From Acidipropionibacterium jensenii DSM 20535 (GTDB taxonomy: Bacteria > Actinomycetota > Actinomycetes > Propionibacteriales > Propionibacteriaceae), in assembly GCF_000425285.1 (NCBI RefSeq), contig NZ_AUDD01000003.1, positions 62,001-126,000 of the forward strand: a stretch of DNA of 64,000 nt. The letters run 5' to 3'. Both the position numbers and the translations under genes were made by a program. Positions within the stretch are counted from its first letter, which is position 1; each line of letters starts with the position of its first letter. Shown here piece by piece: positions 26,419-49,679 of the stretch. The notes beneath the pieces were generated by a model that saw only the letters and a program-made list of their open reading frames with translations, did no database searches and had not been told where the DNA came from.

Positions 26419-26590
26419 ACCTGCTGGTGTGCTTGAACCGGCTGTGTCCTGGACCGACTGCTGACCTCAACCGGCTGGTGTGCTGAACCTGCTGGCGTCT
26501 TGGGCCGGCTGGTGTGCTGAACCTGCCGTCTCCTGGACCGGCTGGTGTGCTGAACCTGCCGTCTCCTGGACCGGCTGCTGTGCTCAACCG
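26417..26590. repeat. Degenerate 33-34 bp tandem repeat, non-coding
   Basis: Three clear units at 26484-26517, 26518-26550 and 26551-26583 share TGAACCTGC...CCGGCTG.TGTGC; more degraded copies extend back to the ctaB stop. There are no spacers, so it is not a CRISPR array. Frames through it look like simple repeats, not protein. Confidence 0.85.
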
Positions 26591-26597
26591 GCACCGA

Positions 26598-26655
26598 GCG
26601 CCTCTTCCTTCACCAGGCGCCTCTTCCAGCTGGCGCGTGGTGAAGGAAGAGGCGC
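26598..26655. repeat. 58-bp palindromic element, copy 1
   Basis: The core of a perfect 20-bp inverted repeat (26596-26615 with 26638-26657). It matches a second element at 27866-27923 over its whole 58-bp length, with the stem conserved and the loop diverged. It may act as a terminator for ctaB or as a REP-like mobile repeat. Confidence 0.85.
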
Positions 26656-26735
26656 TCCGTCGCAGGAATGAGTGGTGACGTACCACCGAGGAGCCGTCAG
26701 GGGGTAGCCGACGGAGTGCGGTCGGGTCTGCAGGA

Positions 26736-26811
26736 TGATCCACAGCGGCTCGGGACCGGGTCGCGAGGTTGTCCACAGGGGGCCGGACTCTCGCCGAGTG
26801 GGTTGTCCACA
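26736..26811. promoter_or_regulatory. Cluster of DnaA-box-like sites
   Basis: TTGTCCACA, the high-GC actinobacterial DnaA box, occurs exactly at 26769-26777 and 26803-26811. A weaker TGATCCACA is at 26736-26744. They lie in the 445-bp gap between ctaB and the nuclease-like gene. The rest of that gap is the tandem repeat and palindrome. Confidence 0.55.
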
Positions 26812-26863
26812 GGATCGGAACTGCCCCTGGCGTCGGCGGACTTCTCATGGCTGGCTTGGTCCC

Positions 26864-27895
26864 ATGACCGAGCAGACCAGGCGGGTCCTGAAGGTGTCCG
26901 ATCTTGCGCTCCAGGGCATCGGCCCCAGTGAGATCGCAAGGCTGAGGAGAGACGGCACCTTCAGCTCCGTGCGCCGCGGTGTCGTGGTGGAGGGAGCTCC
27001 CGAGCGGGATGCCCGACGCCGTCAGTTGGAACTCATCGCGGCGACGATGCCGGTGCTGTCCGGTGCGCAGGGGGTTCTCACCCATACTTCGGCCACAGCC
27101 CTGCTCGGTCTGCCGATGACCGTCATGGGTTCTGATCGAGTGTGGCTCAATCGGCCTGCCGGGAGCAGTTCCCACCGACGTCGGCAGCTCGTTGTCCGGG
27201 ACGGGCCGATGGAGTGGGACGAGGTGACGGAGGTGGACGGCCTGCTGGTCACCGGTCCGGAACGTACCGCCGTCGACATGGCCAGGGAGTTCGGTTTTGT
27301 CACCGGAGTGATGGTCGCCGACGCGGTACTTCGCCGGTCCGGGGAGCCCGAGCGGCTGCAGGAGCTCGTGCGACGCGGTGCCCGGCGTCGCGGAAATGCC
27401 ACGGCCAGGGCGGTGGCGGCATTCGCCGACGGGCTGTCCGAGAGTCCGGGGGAGTCGCTGATGAGGGCTCAGCTGCAGATGCAGGGCTGCCCTGAGCCGG
27501 AACTCCAGGTCGAGATCCTCGATGCGCGAGGCTTCCTGGTGGCGCGTTGCGACTACGGCTGGCGCAGGTATGGGGTGGTCGGCGAGTACGACGGGGTCGA
27601 GAAGTACGGGCGTCTTCTGAGGCCGGGACAGACGGTGTCCGCGGTGGTCGACGCGGAGAAGGATCGCGAGGCCAACATCCGCGACCAGGGTCTGGAGATC
27701 ATCCGGTTCTGCAGAGCCGACCTGCGCAACCCCAGAGCGGCCGCAGCACGGCTCAACCGTCTTCTGGCCAGTCGGGCGCCGAGCGCGATGACGGTGGCGT
27801 CCGGGACATGGGCAGGTCCTCGACGGGCTGTGAGGGCGCCGCTCGGTGCAGTGTGGGACGACGACGCGCCCCTTCTCCCACCAGGCGCCAACTAG
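26864..27895 (+). CDS. wHTH (AbiEi-like) plus DUF559 nuclease-like protein
   Basis: A 343-residue protein. The N-terminus (about 1-70) looks like the AbiEi_4-type winged helix of many actinobacterial proteins of this class (GIGPSEIARLRRDGTFSSVRRGV). The C-terminus (about 225-305) fits the DUF559/Vsr-like PD-(D/E)xK fold: CDYGW, GEYDG, KYGR, then DAEKDREANIRDQG. Role unknown; such genes are often labelled type IV toxin-antitoxin AbiEi family, but no AbiEii toxin gene is next to it. ATG 26864 is chosen because the conserved domain begins just after. The stop codon lies inside the second palindrome's loop. Confidence 0.8.
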   Translation: MTEQTRRVLKVSDLALQGIGPSEIARLRRDGTFSSVRRGVVVEGAPERDARRRQLELIAATMPVLSGAQGVLTHTSATALLGLPMTVMGSDRVWLNRPAGSSSHRRRQLVVRDGPMEWDEVTEVDGLLVTGPERTAVDMAREFGFVTGVMVADAVLRRSGEPERLQELVRRGARRRGNATARAVAAFADGLSESPGESLMRAQLQMQGCPEPELQVEILDARGFLVARCDYGWRRYGVVGEYDGVEKYGRLLRPGQTVSAVVDAEKDREANIRDQGLEIIRFCRADLRNPRAAAARLNRLLASRAPSAMTVASGTWAGPRRAVRAPLGAVWDDDAPLLPPGAN

Positions 27896-27923
27896 AAGAG
27901 GCGCTTGGCGGAGGAAGGGGCGC
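27866..27923. repeat. 58-bp palindromic element, copy 2
   Basis: Aligns base for base with 26598-26655 without gaps. Two stem positions change on both sides (T-A to C-G; T-A to C-G), keeping the pairing, while ten loop bases differ. It covers the last codons of the nuclease-like gene and part of the 73-bp convergent gap to ctaA. Confidence 0.8.
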
Positions 27924-27968
27924 CTGGTGAGGTGGGACGGGCCTTCAGCGCTGCCGGCGTCCCCTCAG

Positions 27969-40508: not shown

Positions 40509-40550
40509 GATGAGGGCGGGCCCCCACATCTGTGGGGGCCCGCCCTCATC
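40509..40550 (+). terminator. Terminator of the suf operon
   Basis: 20-nt complementary arms (40509-40528 with 40531-40550), giving a stem of about 19 bp with a tight loop, 24 bp after the sufT stop. It also separates the convergent metallopeptidase. Confidence 0.9.
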
Positions 40551-49643: not shown

Positions 49644-49679
49644 GCGACGGTCCGGCACTGTGCAGTGCCGGACCGTCGC
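49644..49679. terminator. Bidirectional terminator between fabI and aspA
   Basis: 17-bp perfect arms (49644-49660 with 49663-49679) form a long hairpin in the 111-bp convergent gap. Confidence 0.85.

Follow-up and report, generated by a model that had tools for sequence, protein, structure and literature searches.

An AbiEi-nuclease fusion gene flanked by private palindromes: a putative REP/RAYT-like mobile-repeat system in Acidipropionibacterium jensenii and other Actinomycetes

A gene predicted to encode an AbiEi-like DNA-binding region fused to a Vsr/EDxHD-like nuclease was found between two inverted palindromes in Acidipropionibacterium jensenii DSM 20535, and is read here as the core of a REP/RAYT-like mobile-repeat system built around an unrelated nuclease enzyme (probability about 0.65); binding, cutting and movement are inferred. 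An earlier note on this DNA had suggested a cassette or REP-like element associated with a nuclease, in the manner of RAYT proteins, and the recurrence of the arrangement, the dispersal of its palindromes and its absence as a block from related genomes support that suggestion, mobility remaining an inference. The stretch analysed (the window) is 64,000 nucleotides long, and the following features were assigned to it in window coordinates:

26419..27968, no strand assigned: occupied site of 1550 bp between the convergent genes ctaB and ctaA
26592..26662 (core 26598-26655), no strand assigned: upstream palindrome, from a repeat search, with a hairpin score of 23 and the 19-bp period shared with other palindromes
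26864..27895, + strand: intact gene of 343 aa (open reading frame with ATG at 26864 and TAG at 27893-27895; PADLOC, AlphaFold model and PDB fold matches)
26879..27430, + strand: AbiEi-like DNA-binding region, residues ~6-189 (fold match to 6y8q, Foldseek E 7.6e-06)
27440..27781, + strand: nuclease domain, residues ~193-306 (fold matches to 3r3p and 1cw0, invariant columns)
27859..27929 (core 27866-27923), no strand assigned: downstream palindrome, spanning the stop codon and inverted relative to the upstream one

The earlier note had described two 58-bp elements (26598-26655 and 27866-27923) that align without gaps, and this alignment was reproduced, with 42 of 58 positions identical in the same direction. 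Paired changes claimed at two stem positions were also recovered (pairs 6/53 and 13/46, both T-A to C-G), as was the placement of the second palindrome over the stop codon (TAG at 27893-27895). Three other stem pairs are Watson-Crick in element 1 and not in element 2, while pair 19/40 is unpaired in both. About ten loop bases had been described as diverged; this proved to be mostly an artefact of same-direction alignment, the loop matching at 2 of 10 positions directly and at 8 of 10 after reverse-complementing one element. Overall identity likewise rose from 42/58 to 47/58 on reverse-complementing, and the two palindromes therefore form an inverted pair.

RNA folds of the two elements (+ strand) were 9.8 and 6.0 SD below those of dinucleotide shuffles, with 0 of 200 shuffles as good. 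The upstream palindrome is the top hairpin of the 64-kb window (score 23, versus 13 for the best of three Markov controls); the downstream palindrome scored only 12 in the strict hairpin test, which is no better than the Markov controls. The motif GCGCCTCTTCC occurs in the upstream palindrome at 26598-26608 and again, 19 bp further on, at 26617-26627, and is inverted at 26645-26655. Degenerate tandem repeats of ~17 and 33 bp were observed between the ctaB stop and the first palindrome (26420-26590), and two more near-perfect hairpins, of sequences unrelated by eye, were observed in the window at 40509-40550 and 49644-49679 (scores 19 and 16).

The encoded protein gave a PADLOC match to AbiEi (E 1.2e-11, residues 17-205). 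An AlphaFold2 model (mean pLDDT 80) was built with the window protein as input, together with ten relatives taken from named records. Residues 6-189 of the model matched the AbiEi antitoxin 6y8q (Z 10.6, 169 residues), so that the antitoxin fold is present; the rmsd of 7.8 over these 169 residues indicates that the arrangement of domains differs from that of AbiEi. The best fold match of the nuclease half was the catalytic domain of the homing nuclease I-Bth0305I (3r3p; Z 11.8, 97 residues, rmsd 2.5, model residues 194-306), by which an EDxHD/Vsr-type catalytic fold is present as well, and Vsr also matched (1cw0; Z 9.3, 108 residues, rmsd 3.4, model residues 192-306). Five acidic residues (E193, E197, D230, E241 and D243) were invariant across 11 aligned sequences and are inferred to be a working catalytic site.

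In the earlier note the protein had been called a wHTH plus DUF559-type nuclease. The nuclease assignment stands, by fold, and the DUF559 assignment does not: the window protein had no match to Pfam DUF559 (PF04480), the curated cut-off was not met, and only a weak match (E 0.13) was obtained, in one of nine relatives. Pfam AbiEi_4 gave nothing beyond sub-threshold matches, in four of the nine. Going by the model, the protein is nearer to the Vsr/EDxHD homing nucleases plus AbiEi than to Pfam DUF559. A search of PDB sequences with the protein returned a single match, at E 0.44, and NCBIfam returned 0 families; fold families missing from the VIA list were not counted as excluded. No relatives were found among 50,697 phage records or, by pattern scan, in IMG/VR, and 72,556 plasmids yielded four weak matches, one of them annotated as an AbiEi family antitoxin; an origin of the gene from phage or plasmid is thus unsupported. 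The gene was split into two or more frames at 5 of 80 family loci (L114, L121, L124, L126 and L249). A programmed frameshift at the domain boundary is unsupported, since split loci are few and share no slippery site by eye; ordinary decay, or error in the draft sequence, is likelier.

The arrangement was observed to recur well beyond the window. Two paralogues, 58-60% identical, are present in the window's genome, and these, together with relatives in four other species of the genus, mostly have palindromes of different sequence built on the same plan, with short or partial palindromes only at L018, L021 and L023. Several extra single half-site copies (CGGATGCAGG-like, by eye) were seen between palindrome and paralogue gene at L008 (2530-2696). 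A nine-member profile had matches in 116 of 198 family genomes at E 1e-20 and, at E 1e-15, in 239 of a class-wide sample of 394 genomes. These surveys scored a subset of their candidates, and the loci counted are the best-scoring places rather than a random draw; after two duplicates were dropped, 79 non-redundant family loci remained.

Palindromes scoring at least 13 within 500 bp of the gene were found upstream at 49 and downstream at 43 of the 79 loci, compared with 24 of 575 control windows placed at a greater distance from it, which is 13 to 15 times the control frequency. From the upstream palindrome to the point where the profile match begins, the distance is mostly ~75-260 bp. Long palindromes (at least 54 bp) were present on one or both sides at 47/79 loci and on both sides at 25/79 (control 6/575), and 32/79 had none. 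Upstream and downstream repeats matched one another (score at least 28) at 61 of 77 loci, two loci having insufficient flank, versus 4 of 924 pairings between different loci and 2 of 77 comparisons with a far stretch of the same locus; no matched repeat was found at the other 16. The orientation of the repeats at these loci was often undecidable due to the near-symmetry of the arms. At class level the test comprised the 28 best loci and 7 from named records, one of the 35 being short of flank; L035 and L037 were left out, and the proteins of L030 and L031 are identical over the stretch compared. Matched flanking repeats were present at 29 of 34 loci, against 76 of 1122 control pairings, a control figure that is raised by related loci among the pairings.

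Although these palindromes differ in sequence, a common plan was evident. In the 59 palindromes of at least 56 bp the best arm period was 19 bp in 47 cases and 20 bp in 8, and lag-19 identity in the long palindromes was 0.61 versus 0.28 when shuffled (z 23). Similarity between palindromes followed the identity of the proteins (54 loci, Mantel r 0.34, reached in 0 of 2000 permutations). Of the pairs with more than 70% protein identity, two of three had clearly similar palindromes, as did 18% of 17 pairs at 60-70%, 6% of 81 pairs at 50-60% and ~1% or less below that. Palindromes and proteins have diverged together.

Presence and absence of the unit were compared between the window's genome (G000) and four other species of the genus (G001-G004, G003 being A. 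thoenii), with one genome per species; the G002 assembly is 86% complete. Absence of gene and palindromes from the ctaB-ctaA gap of sister strains had been put forward in the earlier note as a check, and both are missing in three of the four sister species. The gap of G001 measures 9 bp and that of G004 8 bp, and in G003 it holds ~846 bp of other sequence. In G002 it contains the window cassette, 84% identical, in two frames and in the opposite orientation, plus a third palindrome. Beside this nuclease cassette, genes for a TetR regulator and an aldo/keto reductase (by eye) were observed between two window-type palindromes (G002, contig C10, L114, 3400-5393), possibly as cargo.

For eight other cassettes of the genus, the gene was missing at all 32 corresponding loci (four other species each); both flanks were aligned at 30 of these cassette-less loci, one of the 30 having the right flank only ~4.6 kb away. 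The unit comes and goes as a whole, and its presence was observed to be lineage-specific, 8 of 11 sites within the genus being seen in one species only. At three of eight cassette sites checked (L154, L163 and L135), the intergenic stretch that holds the cassette contains, in another species, a solo palindrome of a different type. At L138 in G004 (~1535-2810), ~1.3 kb of other sequence was observed where G001 carries cassette L119, and this site is a possible insertion hot spot. Among the 79 loci, 32 pairs have both flanks in common, the gene having the same orientation in 25 and being inverted in 7. Eight sites carry a cassette in at least two species, and among eight shared sites the inversions occur at three. 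Beyond the genus, many cassettes were found at one and the same place in different species, which is evidence against frequent jumping. One test for concerted change between the repeats on either side of the gene, made at shared sites, failed (2 of 18 pairs).

The palindromes were also observed in dispersed copies. A search of the whole genome and relatives for the element, suggested in the earlier note, was borne out in sister species that have a matching (split) gene and only slightly in the window's genome (3 places); the clustering of solo copies near other such genes, which was to accompany it, was not seen. The window-type palindrome occupies 33 places in G002, including 4 partial ones and 3 within the ctaB-ctaA gap, and 3 in G000, namely the pair around the gene and, on contig C10, a single degenerate solo copy that a search of G000 with the window's own element missed; none was found in G001, G003 or G004. 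The G003-type palindrome occupies 19 places in G003, two of which adjoin the gene, with one partial place in G001, two places in G004 and none in G000 or G002. A third type was found in 4 of 198 family genomes at a minimum of 4 places each, these counts being lower bounds because four candidates per genome were scored; two of the genomes have an intact matching gene and one a split copy.

Dispersal is tied to the cognate gene, with 19 places in G003, 33 in G002 and few or none without the gene. Two exceptions count against the reading, and would mean loss of the gene or independence from it. In G027, with at least 4 copies of the third type, the matching gene was not detected among 13 candidates scored, and in G004 locus L167 is a well-formed relative (85% identical) of the G003-type palindrome for which no G004 gene with that type is known. 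G003 and G002, the copy-rich genomes, each carry the matching gene broken into two frames, so that spreading there may have stopped, or the draft sequence may be wrong.

Copies were mostly sharp-ended. Across 10 distinct full-length copies in G003, 338 of 340 arm pairs were complementary, 7 pair positions showing two or three types of pair, and pairing with such varied pair types was reached by 0 of 1000 shuffles. Across 22 distinct full-length copies in G002, 557 of 704 cells pair, a value equalled by 218 of 1000 shuffles, and this set is apparently older. The outer motif of the G002 copies is nearly constant and the inner motif varies mainly at three positions. Arm pairing and motif constancy in the two sets suggest that recognition rests on the motif copies, and that full pairing is a sign of young copies.

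Positions relative to genes were assigned with a home-made gene finder. Intervals between converging genes hold 10 of the 19 G003 copies and 10 of the 29 G002 copies, and one copy in each set lies inside a predicted gene; the sets include gene-flanking copies, and the 29 consist of 28 of the 33 places plus one degenerate copy. In both genomes the copies have flanks enriched in C to the left and in G to the right (47-50% within 10 bp versus 33-34% at 300-500 bp), and this skew was seen within ~40 bp, symmetric in both G003 and G002. The possibility that the flanks of solo copies are mirror images, the target lying inside a terminator, is unsupported, flank complementarity being no better than in mismatched pairs. 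No regular target duplication was found in the 19 G003 and 29 G002 copies, other types being outside the test. A 10-bp direct repeat is present at one of the 29 G002 copies, a place at which G000 also has a copy, and the palindrome-free G001 has there a single counterpart matching at 9 of 10 positions. RAYTs are not known to leave a regular target duplication. Elsewhere in G002, two window-type palindromes with identical arms and opposite orientation (L186/L185, C3:271030-273198) were observed to flank a YeiH-like permease gene (by eye), and no nuclease gene was seen between them.

Among known systems, the closest parallel in behaviour is with REPs and their RAYT partners. The marks of that partnership are flanking inverted palindromes, co-evolution, abundance tied to the gene and paired stem changes (PMC2817692). 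The window system shares with REP/RAYT units (REPtrons) a single gene between two inverted private palindromes (the window pair is inverted, and repeats are matched at 61 of 77 loci), co-divergence, dispersed copies and paired stem changes. It differs in its enzyme, RAYTs being Y1/HUH transposases and the window protein an AbiEi-Vsr/EDxHD fusion, and in being actinobacterial, whereas the RAYTs of the cited study were only in gammaproteobacteria. REPs are given as 20-40 bp in a second source (PMC3733652), whereas the palindromes described here are mostly 56-76 bp with a 19-bp internal period; the GT(A/G)G head of REPs is not common, by eye, to the 19 G003 and 29 G002 copies, and the window system has tens of copies at most in the genomes searched. 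Y1 transposase (PF01797, the only transposase family searched) had 0 matches in G000, G002, G003 and G004 and one in G001, and a Y1/RAYT enzyme as the mover is thus unsupported. Since the Y1/HUH test is not met, the system acts like a REPtron and is not one, the defining enzyme being absent.

TIRtrons, in which RAYT-like genes (TIRYT) lie between long terminal inverted repeats, are similar in their longer flanking repeats, sometimes a repeated family (PMC3733652), and differ in having a tyrosine transposase. The reported binding site of AbiEi is an 11-bp inverted repeat with a 27-bp spacer (PMC3985639), and AbiEi is similar in the fold of residues ~6-189, in its inverted-repeat DNA sites and in a site plan like that of the window palindrome. 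Unlike type IV AbiE systems, the window protein is fused to a nuclease, has a second palindrome downstream and is accompanied by dispersed copies; as for an AbiEii nucleotidyltransferase partner, the ORF list holds no other convincing gene in the 1550-bp gap, whose neighbours are ctaB and ctaA. The likeness to EDxHD (I-Bth0305I) and Vsr nucleases lies in the fold of residues ~193-306, and the differences lie in another DNA-binding part, a likely recognition site that is not split by the insertion and the lack of a methylase in the gap. To our knowledge no repeat-mobilising system has such an enzyme; the proposed way of life is one known from REP/RAYT. A literature search restricted to titles and the starts of abstracts, with most subscription papers outside its scope, gave no report linking such nuclease genes to palindromes.

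A REP/RAYT-like reading is favoured on the basis of the private flanking palindromes, their co-divergence with the protein, dispersed copies where the gene is present, gain and loss as a block, the lack of a Y1 match in G000, G002, G003 and G004 and the ready means of recognition that the AbiEi half would offer. In the proposed mechanism the AbiEi-like part would recognise its own palindrome through a motif of ~10 bp, present as two copies 19 bp apart and mirrored to give four in all, and the Vsr/EDxHD-like part would cut DNA at or beside the palindrome. Palindrome-gene-palindrome would be the complete unit, and solo palindromes, nearly all between genes, would be non-autonomous copies placed by the protein in trans. 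How the palindrome would be copied elsewhere is a guess, repair or replication from a hairpin or cruciform being conceivable. Binding, cutting, and the spreading of copies by this protein rather than by another enzyme are all inferred, one genome per species having been compared.

Regulation offers another account, in which the palindromes are operators, an AbiEi-like autorepressor (or a defence or toxin-antitoxin protein) controls its own gene and a small regulon, and the nuclease acts elsewhere. It would fit the repression by AbiEi of its own promoter via inverted repeats (PMC3985639), the usual position of the upstream palindrome ~75-260 bp before the profile match and the PADLOC score of 1.2e-11. 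Operators would not lead one to expect a downstream copy, nor its likeness to the upstream one, nor lineage-specific copy sets, and no promoter is expected between converging genes, where 10 of 19 G003 and 10 of 29 G002 copies lie; an AbiEii-type partner was moreover not seen between ctaB and ctaA. This account is considered unlikely. Homing is judged quite improbable: here the cassette would spread by cutting of empty sites followed by repair copying, with palindromes as by-products of the site, and while the best fold match of the nuclease half is indeed the catalytic domain of a homing nuclease and eight sites are occupied in two or more species, the insertion leaves both flanking palindromes whole rather than splitting them, solo copies occur at many sites, and solo palindromes of another type share the cassette's intergenic stretch at three of eight sites (L154, L163 and L135).

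A further account has the palindromes moved by an unrelated transposase, with the gene as a captured passenger; in its favour, other genes do lie between palindromes (TetR and aldo/keto reductase at L114, the permease at L186/L185; names by eye), and some palindromes occur without a detectable gene. Such a history does not predict a private palindrome type in lineage after lineage or a similarity that tracks protein identity, and four of the five genomes have no Y1 match (only Y1 having been searched); very little weight is given to it. Plain terminators or chance hairpins are hardly credible. Many palindromes do lie after genes, often between converging genes, and the downstream window palindrome taken alone is no better than the best control hairpins; frequencies 13-15 times those of controls, matched pairs, the 19-bp period and dispersed near-identical copies speak against it, and on the folds versus shuffles, the hairpin scores and the counts at 79 loci this explanation was rejected.

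The REP/RAYT-like reading has consequences beyond A. jensenii. Opinion is evenly balanced on the wider proposal of an Actinomycetes-wide class of elements in which an AbiEi plus Vsr/EDxHD fusion, without a transposase, suffices to recognise, copy and spread a private palindrome, with specificity and palindrome changing together so fast that there is nearly one palindrome per gene. If the reading is true, the way of life known from REP/RAYT, in which one nuclease gene keeps a population of palindromes, would have arisen at least twice with unrelated enzymes, and very common actinobacterial genes may be repeat-mobilising nucleases rather than antitoxins. About 90 pairs of protein and palindrome (or repeat) were obtained here (61 + 29), and there are probably many more; with their shared 19-bp plan, such pairs would open the DNA-recognition code of AbiEi-type domains to direct testing, and would be a possible source of new site-specific nucleases.
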